Assembly (NCBI RefSeq): GCF_001956985.1
Contig: NZ_CP019082.1
Location: 3,844,001 to 3,908,000, forward strand
From: Paludisphaera borealis
GTDB taxonomy: Bacteria; Planctomycetota; Planctomycetia; Isosphaerales; Isosphaeraceae
Reading direction: 5' to 3'
Length of the DNA: 64,000 nt
Shown: positions 7,090 through 44,245 of the stretch, piece after piece
How the letters are laid out: every line of letters starts with the position of its first letter
How positions within the stretch are numbered: the stretch's first letter is position 1
Notes under the pieces: model-generated
The model's database searches: none
Seen by the model: the letters and a program-made list of their open reading frames with translations, nothing else
Told to the model about the DNA's origin: nothing
Position numbers and translations under genes: made by a program

Positions 7090-7365
7090 CGAGCAACTCC
7101 GTAAATCGAGTCGAGTCGGTCTTCGCGTCGCGGACTCTTGCCGTCGGGACACATGCCAGTAAACAAATCGAGGCAAATCCGGCGCCGCGCCCGCCGGGAA
7201 ACGCCCCGCGACACGAGTTCCCAACTGGAGAACGCAGCTCCCTCGACGCTTGAACGCATCGACGCATCGCTGGGTTGCTATCACGATGCTAGGAAGTGTC
7301 CTTGGGATGTATCGGTCTTCCTTATCGCGGTTTTCCTTGGAGATTCACACGAGCCGAGGCAGAAA

Positions 7366-7440
7366 TCCCTTCTCCCCTTGCAGGCGCAAGAGGAGAAAGT
7401 ATGCTCGTGGCAGCCTGTTTTGATGGCTGTTCGCAACCCG
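7366..7440. repeat. Dispersed repeat, L family copy 3 (partly decayed)
   Basis: CCTTCTCCCCTTGCA begins a decayed hairpin followed by the shared tail TATGCTCGTGGCAGCCTG and so on, matching the copies near 304 and 3790. It lies in the 370-bp gap between the DUF892 gene and the secreted protein at 7459; nothing else is visible in that gap. Confidence 0.65.
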
Positions 7441-7458
7441 GGACGATGCCGCGCCCGT

Positions 7459-8220
7459 TCACTTGGGCTCGGCGAAGGTCTCGGCGGGGAGGTTTTCCTC
7501 GACTTTGAAGTCGACGACGGTCTGCTCGATGAACGGCTCGCCGTCGCGCGTGCTGACGACCTTCGTGGGCCGCTTGACGCCGCCGAAGTCCTTGTAGTCG
7601 GAGAACAGGCTCGCCTGCTCGAACTCCTCGCCGTTCCAGCCGGCGACACGGGCCACGGCCTTGACGGGCAGGCCGCTCTCCTTGTCGAAGAAGAGGCGGA
7701 AGTCCTTGCCGTCGGGGCCGACGATTTTGAGGACGTCGGCCGGCTTGTCGCCCACCTTCTCCTCGCCGTCGGCCGACACCTTGAACCCCTTGCCCTTGAG
7801 GCGGGTCGGCAGGGCCGGCGAGACGATCAGGTACAGCGTCCGCTTCTCGCGGGCGATGTCGTCGGCGCCGAGGTCTTGCTGGTTGTCGTTGAACTTCCTC
7901 CAGCCCTTGTCGCCGTTGACGATCGTCGAGCCCTTGATCGGGTTGCCGCCGAACTCGGCGTCGAAATCAATATGTATGCGATCGTCGCCCTGGAACGTCA
8001 CGCTGGTGTTGAACTTGCCCTCGCCGCCGTTCACGGTCAGTTTCCCCTCGGCTTTCCAGGACGCGGCCTGGATCTTCGCCAGCTTCTCCTCGCCCCCCAA
8101 CGCCTTGACGGCCTTGTCGAGAATCTCGACGGCCTTCGCGTCGTCGGCCTTCGACGGGCCCGTCATGCCGAACAAAAGCAAGGCGGAAGCCGCCGGCGCC
8201 GCAATCCAAGATCGTCTCAT
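7459..8220 (-). CDS. Secreted LolA-like / outer-membrane lipoprotein-sorting-like protein
   Basis: A 253-residue protein with a Sec signal (MRRSWIAAPAASALLLFGMT, cleavage likely before DDAKAVEIL). The mature part opens with a DKAVKALGGEEKLAKIQA helix, a hallmark of planctomycete periplasmic proteins of the LolA/LppX-like fold. It continues as alternating beta strands ending FKVEENLPAETF, where LolA-like domains also end. A role in carrying a lipid or lipoprotein is possible; no partner (LolB, LolCDE) is nearby. The start at 8220 is favoured by AAGGA upstream; an earlier in-frame start at 8244 would add eight residues. Confidence 0.7.
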   Translation of the reverse strand: MRRSWIAAPAASALLLFGMTGPSKADDAKAVEILDKAVKALGGEEKLAKIQAASWKAEGKLTVNGGEGKFNTSVTFQGDDRIHIDFDAEFGGNPIKGSTIVNGDKGWRKFNDNQQDLGADDIAREKRTLYLIVSPALPTRLKGKGFKVSADGEEKVGDKPADVLKIVGPDGKDFRLFFDKESGLPVKAVARVAGWNGEEFEQASLFSDYKDFGGVKRPTKVVSTRDGEPFIEQTVVDFKVEENLPAETFAEPK

Positions 8221-8354
8221 GTGTGGTCCTTGCGCTGATGCCAAGATGACGAAATTCCCGAGGCGAGCTTATCAGATCGGCGGACGATTTGAACGGGGGA
8301 GCGTACCTCGCCGCGCCGAGATTCCCAGACGCGGCCGGTCCGCTCTCGCGATGG

Positions 8355-8807
8355 TCAGTCGGCGTGTTTCTTGAGGACGAACAGCAACTGCTTGTCCTTC
8401 GTCTTGAACTCGCGGGGGATCTCGCCGCCGGGCAGCGCGTAGATGAGCCGGACCTTGTCGCCCTTCTTCTCGATCAGGCCCTGGGCTATCTGGTTCTCGT
8501 CGGCGGCGAGCTTGCTGGTCAGGGTGATCTTGCCGACGCCGTGCTCGCCGGCTTTCAGCTCGTAAGTCGCGCCGTAGACCTCTTTTTCTTCCTTGTCCAT
8601 GACGACCACCCGGTCCTTGGTGAACTGGACGGTCGAGCCCTTGATCCGCTCGTCGGGCTCCTTGACGCCGAATTTCTCGCCCGAAACGATCTCGTAGCCG
8701 CCGACCAGATCCTCGGCCTTGAGGGCGTCGTCGGCCCTGGAAACCGGGGCGGGAAAAGCGGCGAGCACGAGGGAAATCACATTCAGACCGATCGTCGCGC
8801 ACAGCAT
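8355..8807 (-). CDS. TIGR03067-like secreted small protein
   Basis: About 150 residues with a signal peptide (MLCATIGLNVISLVLAAFPA) followed by LKAEDLVGGYEIVSGEKFGV, matching the L-x-G-x-(W/Y)-x-(V/I)-V-S-x-E pattern of the TIGR03067 lipocalin-like family, which is expanded in planctomycetes. The end differs from the classical RP-x-x-F motif (IPREFKTKDKQLLFVLKKHAD), so it is a divergent member. Function is unknown; the fold predicts a small beta barrel outside the cytoplasm. The ATG at 8807 has GGAGA at good spacing, which argues against the longer frame starting at 8864. It shares orientation with the LolA-like gene downstream, 134 bp away, and may be cotranscribed. Confidence 0.7.
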   Translation of the reverse strand: MLCATIGLNVISLVLAAFPAPVSRADDALKAEDLVGGYEIVSGEKFGVKEPDERIKGSTVQFTKDRVVVMDKEEKEVYGATYELKAGEHGVGKITLTSKLAADENQIAQGLIEKKGDKVRLIYALPGGEIPREFKTKDKQLLFVLKKHAD

Positions 8808-8926
8808 GGGTCGCGTCTCCCAGAGAGGGCGTTCGAGAGGCCGGCGAAAGGCGTCGACCATCAACGCTTAACGATCCGGCAATTCCGGCGCCGCGCGGTC
8901 GGGTCGGACGGTCTTCGTGAGGAGGT

Positions 8927-10276
8927 TCAGGTCGTCTCGCGCTGGGGGGCGTAGGTCAGGCCCCCCCGAGGGAAGACGCGGACGGTCGGTTCACGGCTCG
9001 ACGCGCCGAGCGACCGCCGCGCGACGCGCCAGAGTTCGGCCTGGTCGCCGAACAGGCGGACGGGTCCGAGCCGGCCGCCGATTCGGTCGTACAGCGGGGG
9101 CGAGTAGACCAGTACGGTGCGGTCGACGACCAGCTCGCGGGCCCAGCGGAGCATGAAGGCCGCCGGCGAGCCGGTGGTCGAGAGGATGCGTTCGGTCAGT
9201 GGGACCAGTCGGCGGATGGCCCAGCCGCCGGGAGCCCCCGAGCCCGCGATCAGCCGCATCGCCGATCGCGGCATCGAGCGGTCGATCTCGTCGGGATCGG
9301 TCCAGAACAGGCCGACCAGGACCCCGCCCGGCCGGCTCGCGGCCCGGTGGTGGAGCAACACCTTGAAGCTCTGCATCGGGTCGCCGGGCCAGGGGTGGTT
9401 GCCCACCACCACGACGTCGGCGGGGAGGGCGGGGGGGGCCTCGAACCGGCCCTTGGCCGCCGCCGCCAGCCGGTCCTGAACCGATTCGGGACGGCCCGTG
9501 ACCACCCCGAAGATCATGCCGGGCGAGCCGATCAGGTGGCTGATCGAGACGCACGGCCCGAGCCGCCCCGCCGCTTCGTGGATCGCCCGCCGCATCGGGT
9601 TTCCCGACGCGCAGCCGCCGAGCAGCCGGCCGGCGTCGCTGTCGGCCGACAACCCCTGGCGGTGCAGGGCGCCCAGCGTCGTCCGATGGCTCGTCCCCGG
9701 GAAGATCAGCTTGTAGCCGCCGCCGAACCCCGCCTGCAAATGCGGCAAAACCGACCCGATCAAGATCCGCGCGTCGGCCTGGGCGACCGGTCGGAAGACG
9801 CGGATCGGAACCCCCTGCGAGGTCGTCCCCAGGTCTTCGTAAGCGGAAAGGTCGTCGACCGGTGGGCTGAAACAGGCGTAACGGGCCGCCACGTCGTCGC
9901 CCAGCCGCCGCCGCATCGCCTGGTCGTCGACCGCGTGATGGCGGCCGACCCCCACGCTGATCGTCACGTCCCGCTCAACCACCCCCGCGTCGTGCAGCCG
10001 CCGCAAGACGATCGGCAAGGCCTCGCGCACCGGCGTCCACCGCGACGGATCGTCCACCACCAGGGCGACCTTCGACCCGCCTCGCACCAACTCTTCCAGC
10101 CGGGGCGAGTCCAAAGGCGCGTCAAGCGCCGCTTCCAGGGCCGACGGATAATCGGCGACCGCCCCGGCCAGATCAGGCTCGACGACCGATTCACGGCCCA
10201 CCCGCCAGTCGTCGGGGAACTCCAGCCGCAAAACCCCGTCCGCGCCCCACGGCGCCTCGATCGGCCCCATTCCCAT
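8927..10276 (-). CDS. LarA-family (DUF2088) nickel-dependent racemase homologue
   Basis: About 449 residues. The core residues of lactate racemase LarA can be mapped: D-D-P-S-R-W-T-P (the D-x-x-R motif near residue 95), G-V-G-R-H-H, and PHLQAGFGGGYK. Numbered from 10276, His179, Lys189 and His205 keep exactly the spacing of LarA His174, Lys184 and His200, the nickel ligands and the lysine that binds the nickel-pincer cofactor. This suggests a working 2-hydroxyacid racemase or epimerase, with an unknown substrate. The start was chosen at 10276 (GGAGGG upstream); 10270 is equally possible. No larB, larC or larE cofactor genes are in the window. Confidence 0.8.
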   Translation of the reverse strand: MGMGPIEAPWGADGVLRLEFPDDWRVGRESVVEPDLAGAVADYPSALEAALDAPLDSPRLEELVRGGSKVALVVDDPSRWTPVREALPIVLRRLHDAGVVERDVTISVGVGRHHAVDDQAMRRRLGDDVAARYACFSPPVDDLSAYEDLGTTSQGVPIRVFRPVAQADARILIGSVLPHLQAGFGGGYKLIFPGTSHRTTLGALHRQGLSADSDAGRLLGGCASGNPMRRAIHEAAGRLGPCVSISHLIGSPGMIFGVVTGRPESVQDRLAAAAKGRFEAPPALPADVVVVGNHPWPGDPMQSFKVLLHHRAASRPGGVLVGLFWTDPDEIDRSMPRSAMRLIAGSGAPGGWAIRRLVPLTERILSTTGSPAAFMLRWARELVVDRTVLVYSPPLYDRIGGRLGPVRLFGDQAELWRVARRSLGASSREPTVRVFPRGGLTYAPQRETT

Positions 10277-10510
10277 CCCCTCCCTCCCTCGAATCCCCCA
10301 AGCCGGCCGCCACGCGACCGCCCCCGTTACGCTATCGCCCCGCCCGACCGACACCAACCCCTTTGCTCTCGCCCGACATTGCGCCTGAAGGAAGATTAAT
10401 GATAATTCAGGATAGCTACAGAATTTGCGGTAGTTGGTCGATATAGGGTGTTATCAGTCCGTTCCCTCTGGATATTGGGTGCGCTGCGCCTTTCAGGGAT
10501 GGTGAGACAT

Positions 10511-11884
10511 ATGAGTCGATCGAGAGACGGCCGCCGCCGTTCGATGAGTCTTCGGCCGGCCGGCGACAACCTGGAAACCCGCCAGTTGCTCAACGGCACT
10601 TGGCCCACGTACATCTCGAAGGCCGAGCTGCGATCGTTGTTGAACGACCCGCCGGGGCAGCCGGCGGTGCGGCCCAACACGCCGGTCCTTCCCTACGGGA
10701 CGCCGGCCAAGTCGGCGACGTTCATCGACCCCTCGGTATGCGTCACCAACGGTTACGCGGTCATCATCAGCCAGAACAGCTTCATCGGCCCGTACGCCAA
10801 GCTGAACGCGCAGGCGGGTATCGTCAAGATCGGCAGCTACACGGCGATCCTCGACAACGCATCGATCACCGCCAATCCGTCGAACCTCCACGGCGGTCCC
10901 GCGCCCGAGGTCCTGATCGGCAGCCAGGTCGAGATCAGCTACGGGGCGACGGTCACGGGCCCCGCGGTGATCGGCGGCTACAACGCGGCGACCAAGCCGA
11001 CGTACGTCGGCCCCGGCGCGGTGATCGACGGCGCGACGATCGCCCCCGGCGCGTTCGTCTCGGCCCTGGCCCGGGTGGGTCCCGGCGTGACCGTCCCCGC
11101 GGGGATGAAGGTCTTGCCTGGCGCGAACGTCACGACCGACGCCGAAGCTTCGGACCCGGCGCTTGGCAAGGTGACGCCCGTCACGGCGGCCGACCAGGCC
11201 GACCTGGTCAAGACCCTGAACGCCAACTACTCGCTGGGCATCGGCTACGCCACGCTTTACCAGGGCCAGTCGGCCACCGGAGCGAGCCCCGGGGTGCCGA
11301 GCACGGTGAGTGGGGTGAACAACGGCAACCTCTGGACCGTCACCGGCGCGAACTCGCAACCGGGGTCGCCGACGGCCTCCACCGCCTACCTGCCGCCGGG
11401 AGCGGGGCCAAAGTTCCCGACGCCCCACCGGCCGCTCCTGGCCCAGGGGCTCTTGGGCAGCTTCACGTCCCGCGTCACCGGCGGCGCCCGGTTCACCCAG
11501 CGGGCCGCGAGCGTGCAGGCCGCCCTCGGCCGCCGGAACTCGATCCGGGCCGACCAGGGCCAGCCGATCTCGGTCGGGTCGATCGCCCAGACCGGCTCCA
11601 GCGTCACGATCAACTCGCCCGAAGGGGGCTCGCTCGCGATCGGCCAGCAATTCAGCGCGGGCCGAGGCGCGGTGATCCTGGGCGGCACGAGCGCCAAGCC
11701 GGCGGTGATCGGCGACGACGTCACGATCGGCGCGGGGGCGGTCGTCGACCGCAGCTCGCTGGGGAGCGGCTCGACGGTCGGCACCCTCGCCTACGTGCTC
11801 AACTCGACCTTCCCCGCCGGAACCAACATCCCGGACGGGGCCATCTACATCAACAACGTGCTCGTCGGCCACGTCAGCCGCTGA
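10511..11884 (+). CDS. LEPR-XLL-type secreted left-handed beta-helix protein (gamma-carbonic-anhydrase-like fold)
   Basis: About 457 residues. The N-terminus is basic and carries LRPAGDNLETRQLLNG, a variant of the LEPR-XLL motif found at the start of planctomycete surface proteins. Two blocks of hexapeptide repeats follow (about 80-210 and 370-450; for example IVKIGSYTAILDNASI and AVIGDDVTIGAGAVVD), predicting left-handed parallel beta-helix as in gamma-class carbonic anhydrases and acyltransferases. The zinc-site His seen in gamma-CA (IGHGAILHG type) is replaced here (ISYGATVTG), so carbonic anhydrase activity is unlikely. The linker contains Pro/Gly-rich sequence. The start at 10511 follows GGTGAG; earlier in-frame ATGs exist. 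An AT-rich upstream region (10395-10465) probably holds the promoter. Confidence 0.75.
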   Translation: MSRSRDGRRRSMSLRPAGDNLETRQLLNGTWPTYISKAELRSLLNDPPGQPAVRPNTPVLPYGTPAKSATFIDPSVCVTNGYAVIISQNSFIGPYAKLNAQAGIVKIGSYTAILDNASITANPSNLHGGPAPEVLIGSQVEISYGATVTGPAVIGGYNAATKPTYVGPGAVIDGATIAPGAFVSALARVGPGVTVPAGMKVLPGANVTTDAEASDPALGKVTPVTAADQADLVKTLNANYSLGIGYATLYQGQSATGASPGVPSTVSGVNNGNLWTVTGANSQPGSPTASTAYLPPGAGPKFPTPHRPLLAQGLLGSFTSRVTGGARFTQRAASVQAALGRRNSIRADQGQPISVGSIAQTGSSVTINSPEGGSLAIGQQFSAGRGAVILGGTSAKPAVIGDDVTIGAGAVVDRSSLGSGSTVGTLAYVLNSTFPAGTNIPDGAIYINNVLVGHVSR

Positions 11885-15488: not shown

Positions 15489-15670
15489 TCTCGGCCCGCC
15501 CTCACCGCCCTGATGCTCGGCGATCGTCGACGCACGACGACACGCACCAACACTCTACGACACGCCCGTGATGGACATGGCCGAAAGTCGGTTCCGCGTG
15601 ACATCGCGTCGGCAAATTCGCCACGAATCGGCGCGATCGGCGACGTCCGGCCTAGCGCCGGCGGAGGTCG

Positions 15671-15784
15671 TCTGGGTGGCTGTGACGGAGCGGAGCGACG
15701 CCACAGGGCGGACGCCGCGGCCCTCGCATCTGTGGCATTTTGCCAGAGCCACCCATTGCCGTCTGCATCCCCAAAATAGCCCGC
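15671..15784 (+). repeat. MITE-like repeat, K family copy 1, with flanking direct repeats
   Basis: A 114-bp element starting TCTGGGTGGCTGTGACGGAG and ending about AAAATAGCCCG is repeated at 37298-37410. It has internal complementary segments (GGGTGGCT with AGCCACCC). A 19-bp perfect direct repeat (CTAGCGCCGGCGGAGGTCG) flanks it at 15652-15670 and 15786-15804. The right flank copy is the last codons of the neighbouring gene. Confidence 0.8.
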
Positions 15785-15785
15785 G

Positions 15786-16073
15786 CTAGCGCCGGCGGAG
15801 GTCGCGAGGTTGAGATGGCTGGGACGATTCGCGGGCGGTGAAATTGTCGCTCTCGAAGACGTAGCCGCAGACCAGGATCGAGAGGCTGCCCGCGAACAGG
15901 AGGGCGATGGTGTTGACGAGTTGAAGTTGAGGCTCGGGGAGGTTGGCGGGGAAGATCGCCGGGGCGACGTCCTCGACGTCGCGCATCATGTCGCTGACGG
16001 CGTTGTTCACGGACGTCGCGGCGAGCACGACCTGGCCTAGCACCCGCGGAATCGCACGCTTGGCAAGGGCCAT
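15786..16073 (-). CDS. Hypothetical protein with one membrane segment
   Basis: A 95-residue protein. The ATG at 16073 is preceded by AAGGAGG at ideal spacing, the clearest ribosome site in this region, so I regard it as a real gene. Residues 1-45 form a likely amphipathic helix region (MALAKRAIPRVLGQVVLAAT, then SVNNAVSDMMRDVEDV), followed by one hydrophobic segment (about 58-78, NTIALLFAGSLSILVCGYVF) and a polar tail ending RDLRRR. No family recognised. Its stop codon lies in a 19-bp sequence duplicated on the far side of the K element, suggesting insertion at the 3' end. Confidence 0.6.
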   Translation of the reverse strand: MALAKRAIPRVLGQVVLAATSVNNAVSDMMRDVEDVAPAIFPANLPEPQLQLVNTIALLFAGSLSILVCGYVFESDNFTARESSQPSQPRDLRRR

Positions 16074-16115
16074 CGGACGCCTCCTTCTCAACGGGCCGCC
16101 GGCGCGGCTCCGAGG

Positions 16116-36569: not shown

Positions 36570-37259
36570 ATGATGCAACCTACGTTCCGCGCGTCCGGCC
36601 TCTTGAAGTCCGTGCCGGCCTTGTTGCTCGCGACGCTCTTCCTTCCCTGCGCCGACGCCGCCCGGGGCTCCGAGGAACCGAAGAAGCCGGCTCGGCCGGC
36701 GGGCCGGAAGCTCACCCACGAGGAGACCCTCCGCTGGATCGCCGAGCACAAGGCCTGGCGGCTGGCCCGCAAGACCAAGCCGATCTGGGCCCGCCCGGTT
36801 GCGCCGGAAGAGGTTGGCAAGGAATTCGAGACCGCCGATCACGTCAAGGAAGTTGCACGCGAAGGCGCGTGGCTCTGCGTCGGCGTCGCTGGCGAGCCCT
36901 GGTTCCAGAGCCTTGAGAAGATCGAGGCGAAGTACGAGCACTCCGGCGAAAAGGCCAAGAAATTCGACTTCGACAAGGAACCTCGCGAATACCAGAGCTA
37001 TAAACCGAAGGCCGCGACACGAAACTGGGTGGCGCAGGTGAAGGGTGATGGGATCGAGGGCTTCACCATCCGTCCCGGCTACGATCCCGACCTCCCGCTC
37101 TACTCTCCAGCCGGCGGCTACGTCGTCCGGGATGACGTGACCGACCCGTACAAGACGCCGGCCGAGGACGCCTGGCTCGTGCAGCAACCCCTGTTCGAAA
37201 GCACATACGAACTGGTCCCCGAGCCGAGCGAACAGTCGCCCGCCCCCGCGCCGAAATAG
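36570..37259 (+). CDS. Hypothetical secreted protein
   Basis: A 229-residue protein with a signal peptide (about 1-32, LLKSVPALLLATLFLPCADA) and a charged, Lys/Glu-rich mature part. It has a notable Trp/Pro motif (TKPIWARPVAPEEVGKEF) and ends in a Pro-rich tail (EPSEQSPAPAPK). I do not recognise a domain. It follows the patatin gene by 174 bp on the same strand, but the gap and signal peptide argue that it is a separate gene rather than part of that module. A K element lies directly downstream. Confidence 0.65.
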   Translation: MMQPTFRASGLLKSVPALLLATLFLPCADAARGSEEPKKPARPAGRKLTHEETLRWIAEHKAWRLARKTKPIWARPVAPEEVGKEFETADHVKEVAREGAWLCVGVAGEPWFQSLEKIEAKYEHSGEKAKKFDFDKEPREYQSYKPKAATRNWVAQVKGDGIEGFTIRPGYDPDLPLYSPAGGYVVRDDVTDPYKTPAEDAWLVQQPLFESTYELVPEPSEQSPAPAPK

Positions 37260-37297
37260 TCGCGGTTTGCATTTGAGTTGCATACGGGGTCGCTAGT

Positions 37298-37410
37298 TCT
37301 GGGTGGCTGTGACGGAGCGAAGCGACGCCACAGAGCGGACGCCGCGGCCCTCGCATCTGTGGCATTCTGCCGCAACCACCCATTGCCGTCTGCATCCCAA
37401 AAGTAAACCA
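37298..37410 (+). repeat. MITE-like repeat, K family copy 2
   Basis: A 113-bp copy of the element at 15671-15784 in the same orientation, about 90 percent identical by eye. It is flanked by the direct repeat CGCTAGT (37291-37297 and 37411-37417). It lies in the gap before the P450 gene. Confidence 0.8.
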
Positions 37411-37673
37411 CGCTAGTCGCGCGGCCGGTCGGGCTTGTATTTCGGAGCCAAGCATCGCGAATTGTCGGCGCCCGGAATAAGTGTCGGGTCGTCGGCCCGG
37501 GGAAAAAGGATGTTTACATCGAGCTTTCGTGATGTCTGTCCGTGTGCATTGCACGAGCAAACCGGGTTCAGTGCCGCCGTCGACACGGCTTTCCGCCCCT
37601 CCTGGTTCACGCTACTCTGACGGTCGGCTTTTCGGTCCCACGTCCGCGAACGACCGACCCAGGAGGAGCATGG

Positions 37674-43850: not shown

Positions 43851-44085
43851 GATTCCCAAGGCGACCAAGGAATCTCTCCGCCCGGCTTGCGCACCTGCCG
43901 CCAAATTGCCAAAGACCCTACAACCCGCTAGTTCTCCATTCTAAATATACGACATGCGACGCCTGGTCTGAAAAGCGGCCGTGCGGGCCTCGGACGTTCG
44001 ACGGAATCACCCATAGGGGTCCGTCCACGAACGCAATTCACCTATGAGTTGCGCACACCCAGCGTGGCCGGAAAACCGTATCGCC

Positions 44086-44171
44086 GTAGGGGCGCCCCTT
44101 GTGGGCGCCCGAATCGCGGAGATCGCCGTGGCTGCCGATCCGGATCGGGCACCCACAAGGGGCGCCCCTAC
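44086..44171. repeat. Hairpin repeat, G family copy 2
   Basis: Arms 44086-44111 and 44146-44171 pair through GTAGGGGCGCCCCTTGTGGG. It matches the G hairpin inside both composite elements but stands alone here, without the flank or H blocks. Confidence 0.8.
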
Positions 44172-44245
44172 GTGAGCATCGCGAACGAATCGCGCGCCAA
44201 CTCGCAGTATGGAGTCGAAACGCGGGGTCGAAGAAATTCATGAAC

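Follow-up and report, generated by a model that had tools for sequence, protein, structure and literature searches.

A composite repeat in Paludisphaera borealis: a REP-like dimer probably nested in an IS630-type TA-MITE

The window, that is, the whole 64-kb stretch of DNA analyzed here, comes from the 7.65 Mb genome of Paludisphaera borealis (three contigs; hereafter G000) and contains two copies of a short repeat whose core is designated K. Copy 2 is a complete K-in-MITE, found at 37259-37413 between two TA dinucleotides (37257-37258 and 37414-37415). It is composed of a left TIR with its spacer on the plus strand (37259-37299; matrix score 37.5), the 83 bp K core, also on the plus strand (37300-37382), and a right spacer with its TIR on the minus strand (37383-37413; score 40.8). 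The ORF at 36570-37259 ends in the stop codon TAG, whose first two bases are the left target TA. When the element is removed, the flanks read by eye as ...GCGCCGAAA-TA-GTCGCGC..., and since they rejoin at TA, the stop codon of this ORF is kept with or without the insertion. TA-MITE boundaries at copy 2 would imply AAATAGTCGCG as the empty site. Empty sites were sought in five genomes of the same genus, but none could be demonstrated: the protein flanking copy 2 was matched in none at E 0.001 and the protein flanking copy 1 was matched only weakly, in three, at 32-33% identity.

To the left of copy 1 (L001) is a 19 bp sequence, CTAGCGCCGGCGGAGGTCG (15652-15670), which occupies the position expected of the left MITE TIR. 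The K core follows on the plus strand at 15673-15755 as an 83 bp inverted pair of REP-type arms (TGGGTGGCTGTG...CCACCCA). Next to it, on the minus strand, the TA-MITE shell is represented by its right spacer and TIR (15756-15786; score 18.3), which end at the target TA at 15787-15788. The 19 bp recur without a mismatch at 15786-15804, as the preliminary description of this locus had reported, and it was equally correct in placing this right copy at a gene end: the ORF 15786-16091 on the minus strand has its stop codon there, and the TA at 15787-15788 is part of that codon. The element itself was delimited less accurately. It had been given as 114 bp (15671-15784), but the stretch between the two repeats measures 115 bp (15671-15785) and the K core only 83 bp. 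A second copy does exist in the window as claimed; however, the word CGCTAGT, taken to be its flanking direct repeat, does not flank it. The left word (37291-37297) lies in the left spacer, 32 bp inward of 37259, where the element actually begins, and the other (37411-37417) straddles the right end; the pair is no target duplication.

The window also contains a degenerate MITE shell with a GTAG-tagged dimer (GTAGGGGCGCCCCTTGTGGGCGCCC) at 44029-44195 (left TIR score 20.0; right end placed by eye) and a second degenerate shell with a hairpin of the CCTTCTCCC type at 7323-7453 (left TIR score 28.1; right end again by eye). A half-shell with the same type of hairpin lies at 304-406. Its right TIR scores 20.1, its start was placed by eye just past a TGA, and no left TIR was seen. 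In an Rfam search of the window, a tRNA was the sole match.

Alignment of 16 copies defines the K core as 83 bp running from TGGGTGGCTGTGG to CCACAGCCACCCA, with a short form of about 75 bp. K was found at 16 places in G000 by DNA similarity and at 19 by a covariance model, whose 36 hits on the two strands correspond to 18 distinct places with E below 1e-5 and a 19th (L126) with E 0.006. As 150 of 7141 candidates from this genome were scored in the covariance search, the count of K is a lower bound. L126 (G000:C1:3665666-3665756) is a weak relative which keeps the feet GGGTG/CCACCC and has a wholly different 11 bp stem. By DNA similarity K was found in one of 40 genomes, its own, and in none of 39 relatives. 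The covariance model gave no hits in five genomes of the same genus, with 150 of 7,141 to 11,709 candidates scored per genome, and exact patterns of the K arms and shell TIR had no matches in a broader contig scan from which own or near records were possibly excluded. A shell TIR accompanies K at four of its 19 copies, on the right side only in L001 and L003 and on both sides in L002 and L010. At the other 15 there is no shell TIR scoring 12 or more within 250 bp. Among the first 16 copies, inspection by eye located the tail TTGCCGTCTGCATCCCAAAAGTAAACCACGCTA at the same four loci, closely matching in L001, L002, and L003 and diverged in L010.

Further analysis revealed that this tail has a distribution of its own. 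Searched alone, with up to three mismatches, the tail end occurs at 12 places, compared with zero for a reversed control. Two of these are K copies (L002 and L003). The other ten show no K in their flanks by eye. The tail of the K copies is the end of another repeat, namely the TIR of a separate TA-flanked MITE. The consensus end of this shell family is TA followed by GAGCGGTTTGCRTTTGGGTTGCACAC. The earlier suggestion of a MITE-like element was partly borne out, in that a MITE does contribute to the repeat. The 114 bp unit itself is not this MITE; it joins a K dimer to a single TIR from another MITE, one flanked by TA. The shell family was found at 86 places with tail model R1 (E up to 1) and at 75 with model R3 (E up to 0.02), both numbers being lower bounds because 150 of 1456 and 150 of 2040 candidates from this genome were scored, respectively. 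R3 was built on 44 of 50 ends. Six were dropped by hand: the two ends of L112, which is identical to L111, the two of L121, and a single end each of L119 and L122.

Pairing of the ends was carried out with a weight matrix on 62 loci, which gave 39 pairs, or 38 once L222 was removed as the same place as L105, together with 22 unpaired loci and one without a hit. Regions were taken for all pairs and most unpaired hits, and the unpaired loci stand outside the 38. The 38 distinct pairs of TIRs face inward and are closely spaced, at 121-536 bp (35 at 121-240 bp and the others at 259, 311, and 536 bp), which makes the shells too short for a transposase gene. In five of the pairs the weaker end scores just 11.5-14.6; over the entire window the matrix gives seven hits of 9 or more. 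L127 and L128, two half-shells with K, are among the 22 unpaired loci; at 15 of these 22, a cargo word lies no more than 300 bp inward.

TA was found at the outer two bases of 47 out of 76 shell ends, against 1.1% TA among the dinucleotides of the window; for this count the first four columns were excluded from anchoring, while the pairs themselves had been picked with the full matrix. Many ends are degenerate, and TA is retained at both ends in 14 of the 38 shells (15 when a single inserted base is tolerated in L100). The CTAG at both window junctions, which had been read as an insertion target, is truly present in the letters, and it results from the TA target together with the terminal G/C of the element, since a TA target followed by G reads as CTAG on the right. 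As a rule for the target it did not hold, as 15 of the 19 K copies are without the tail and the K flanks inspected by eye show no CTAG rule. A 1991 paper reportedly describes, going by its title, a preference of IS630 for TA in CTAG.

TIRs of the shell type were also found around IS630-family genes of relatives. In a genome of the same genus (G002), L154:491-1529 is a 1039 bp element with TIRs TACAGCGGTTTGCC/TACAGCGGTTTACC (scores 25.3 and 34.0), each beginning with TA. Its 323-aa ORF matches NF033545 (IS630-family transposase) at 173.6 bits, against a cut-off of 100, and a DDE_3 domain is present. This IS is a candidate autonomous partner of the shells. Similarly, L223 (G006) has TIRs scoring 18.9 and 21.8 around a 313-aa IS630-family ORF (165.5 bits). 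Among those listed in seven relatives, 30 IS630 loci were compared: 18 have no shell-type end, five have one, and seven have a pair (scores of 9 or more), although five of these seven are copies in G014 with weak scores of 12-15. In G000 itself, no autonomous IS630 with the shell TIR was found at the five PF13358 (DDE_3) loci, one of which is below the curated cut-off; two of them, L138 and L140, have other inverted repeats starting with TA. The helper enzyme had previously been called unknown, which is too strong as regards its type: relatives carry IS630-family genes with such TIRs, though no matching IS630 gene was found at the five loci in G000. Movement of the shells by cut and paste at TA appears well supported by the kind of element that they resemble.

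We consider it highly probable that the K-bearing repeat combines two mobile repeats unrelated to each other, with a REP-type dimer lying inside a TA-MITE of the IS630 type. It has two parts, which belong to separate families, and it is flanked by TA. The inner K would be a REPIN/BIME-like dimer with a GTGG foot, moved now or once by a RAYT-type single-strand transposase with no target duplication. The outer TA-flanked MITE, with its IS630-type TIRs, would be moved in trans by an IS630-family DDE transposase. As to the order of events, K may have entered one MITE shell, and shell and K would then have moved together, reaching at least four places, including the two in the window.

The composite is damaged at copy 1. 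No left TIR was seen there; instead, the target sequence occurs a second time, ending two bases ahead of K. The 19 bp repeat is not a chance match, since in 500 random comparisons of two 33 bp stretches of the window the longest common word was 15 bp and the 99% point was 8 bp. L003, found elsewhere in the genome, is also without a left TIR, and L001 and L003 break on the left at the same position, 2 nt before TGGG (breakpoint CGTCTGGG). However, the outer flanks of L003 (40 bp on each side) share at most 6 bp, in a test which recovers the 19-mer at L001. It is suggested that at both loci the left TIR was lost as far as the base of the K hairpin, and that at copy 1 the broken end was joined to a second copy of the target sequence, which would have produced the 19 bp direct repeat. 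The likely cause would be a gap repair that failed, or template switching, at the hairpin. Alternatively, the repeat could be older than the insertion. In that case the gene end would already have been present twice, and the left TIR would have been removed by a deletion reaching from the left copy to K. By eye, the left spacer of copy 2 reads GGGGTCG near K and the 19-mer ends in GGTCG, a possible microhomology for such a deletion, but this history demands an earlier duplication of exactly that stretch and the CTAGT of the spacer is missing as well, which leaves it rather doubtful.

A long direct repeat is found at only one of the four units of K with a TIR. For the other three units the longest word common to both flanks was 6 bp, the same length as at the 15 shell-free K places, and at the 38 shells it was 8 bp. 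The test on the edges of K is unsuited to the four copies with a TIR, and their outer ends were tested separately. Copies without direct repeats are what the preliminary description had itself named as contradicting its model. With these now found, and with no shell TIR at 15 of the 19 K places, a single element whose copies all have the tail, CTAG, and direct repeats is not retained.

Within the composite, the assignment of K to the REP type was examined through its arms. A published rule describes REPs as GT[AG]G, 0-2 nt, a stem of 7-20, and a loop of 2-5 (PMC6006769). Applied strictly, this rule is fitted by at least one arm at 12 of the 19 K places, including the weak relative L126, and by both arms at four. 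In the fitting arms, a GTGG foot leads directly into a perfect stem, 7-11 bp long and usually 8, with a loop of 3-5 nt. Neither arm fits at the remaining seven places, among them L001, L002, L003, and L010; that is, all four TIR-bearing copies, including both window copies, fail the strict rule. Across the entire window the rule gave five matches, and the two printed belong to the related GTAG family. G000 has five PF01797 (RAYT) loci, and at none of them is a RAYT gene flanked by K, a single K-model hit being at chance level (E 0.73). None of the five loci contains CTGTGGC or GCCACAG, although L019 has a single GCCACCC and L021 a single GGGTGGC. Given that at least one arm fits the rule at 12 places and neither arm at seven, that shell-free places show no target duplication, and that no RAYT gene flanked by K was found, K would be best called REP-like.

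It is unlikely that K is instead an ordinary TIR-MITE of a DDE transposase. Its arms are near-perfect inverted repeats, and both the five PF01797 loci without an adjacent K and the seven places failing the strict rule would agree with such an origin. On the other hand, the flank words at the 15 shell-free places never exceed 6 bp, arms with foot and hairpin of the published REP form are present at 12 of 19 places, and L126 has retained its feet on a different stem. Less probable still is the possibility that the 115 bp of K and right TIR are mobile in their own right, with the left end of K as an element end and target duplications of variable length: the perfect 19 bp repeat at copy 1 and, as the best argument, the left breakpoint common to L001 and L003 point that way, since a half-shell could itself be mobile, but the flanks of L003 do not repeat beyond 6 bp, the 7 bp repeat does not coincide with the ends of copy 2, L002 and L010 carry the left TIR where it is expected, and elements of the IS630 kind with a TA target duplicate TA only, as described for ISY100 (PMC2170065).

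In the composite reading, K is the cargo of a MITE shell, and other shells were found to carry other hairpins. A script (at least 80% identity) detected cargo words of four unrelated hairpin families in 35 of the 38 shells, as opposed to 55 of 2000 random 171 bp segments of the window. The most common cargo is the GTAG-tagged dimer (GTAGGGGCGTCCCTTGTGGGCGCCC; 17 shells), followed by CCTTCTCCC...GGGAGAAGG (15 shells), K (two), and GGGAGGGCGAGGCTCCCG (one). The remaining three shells (L107, L115, and L205) have a hairpin of the CCTTCTCCC kind that was recognized by eye only. Shells were identified from their ends rather than from their cargo, yet the starting tail had been taken from K copies. 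The GTAG dimer has at least 62 sites among the matches listed (122 matches in all). Of these 62, 23 lie within 200 bp of a listed shell end, compared with a random mean of 0.2 and a maximum of 4. The other 39 have no listed end nearby, but the one at window position 44096 is still inside the degenerate shell found by the matrix. This dimer has a possible RAYT in the genome: at L018, one of the five PF01797 loci, a RAYT-like gene (1009-1878) and a GTAG-tagged dimer (2268-2340), which belongs to the 39, are about 400 bp apart, the gene scoring above the cut-off for PF01797 and 66.1 bits for NF047646, below the cut-off of 80.

The number of captures appears to be much smaller than the number of shells. 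Spacers are common to the copies within one cargo class (by eye), and therefore the 17 and 15 shells are descendants of few captures, possibly one per class, with about four independent captures. In relatives, shells of the same TIR type were found with other hairpins (L156 in G014; L158 and L151 in G008). Moreover, L144 (G006) is a 103 bp shell without a large dimer by eye, so cargo is not obligatory.

REP dimers inside longer palindromes were reported for A. variabilis GTAG-15, H. neapolitanus CGTC-1, and T. roseum GTAG-23 and, in the sections of that paper available, REP-free palindromes were not found for two of these three species (PMC3733652). As in the shells, REP dimers there lie within longer inverted repeats, and the A. 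variabilis palindrome begins and ends with TA. In contrast, the same sections give one REP family per palindrome and do not call the palindrome a transposon, whereas G000 has one TIR family with at least four unrelated hairpin families and a TIR type tied to IS630 transposase genes. The presence of REP dimers inside palindromes is therefore already in print, and what is added here is that the palindrome is an IS630-type TA-MITE and that it holds several hairpin families. A literature search of titles and abstract openings returned no publication on REP dimers inside IS630-type MITEs, which is not proof of absence. RUP of S. pneumoniae is linked to IS630. It is also named as a MITE in a passage of one of the above papers (PMC3733652).

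Compared with REPINs and BIMEs with their RAYTs, as presented in parts of PMC3116915 and PMC6006769, K has the same inverted arms of foot and hairpin, a foot of the GTAG/GTGG kind, and no target duplication. It differs in that no adjoining RAYT gene was found, the candidates scored gave just 19 places, and its arms are often degenerate. The shells, in turn, are similar to IS630/Tc1-mariner elements and MITEs such as those outlined in an extract on ISY100 (PMC2170065): they are short, non-coding, bounded by TIRs, and flanked by TA, with a terminal G/C that creates CTAG. Unlike these, they have REP-type hairpins as their interior, and their own genome yielded no autonomous copy sharing the TIR.

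Based on the four unrelated hairpin families in one shell family and the other hairpins in shells of the same type in relatives, it may be speculated that REP dimers land preferentially on the hairpin that an IS630-type MITE extrudes and are then carried along when the MITE is cut and pasted. This would amount to parasitism on two tiers, with a single shell family exchanging one REP cargo for another in the course of time, a reading in which we place little confidence. A TA-MITE family with four REP-type hairpin families nevertheless offers a direct test of whether RAYTs prefer the hairpin loops of other elements. It also touches on where REP dimers settle and on their route into new genomes. 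The same family calls for caution, since short repeats read from sequence alone may be chimeras and direct repeats at a single copy are a poor guide to target duplication.

Two further observations concern individual loci of G000. At L020 and L021, RAYT-like genes lie amid several copies of their own repeat, of GCACTCGCTGGCGCTTCGGGCTTGTA types, and by eye, copies of this kind are also located beside K at L004 and L012. Separately, L046 (G000:C1:7388988) is a short shell, about 80 bp long, that seems to have lost its GTAG dimer through a deletion between GGGC words, leaving GTAGGGG (by eye).
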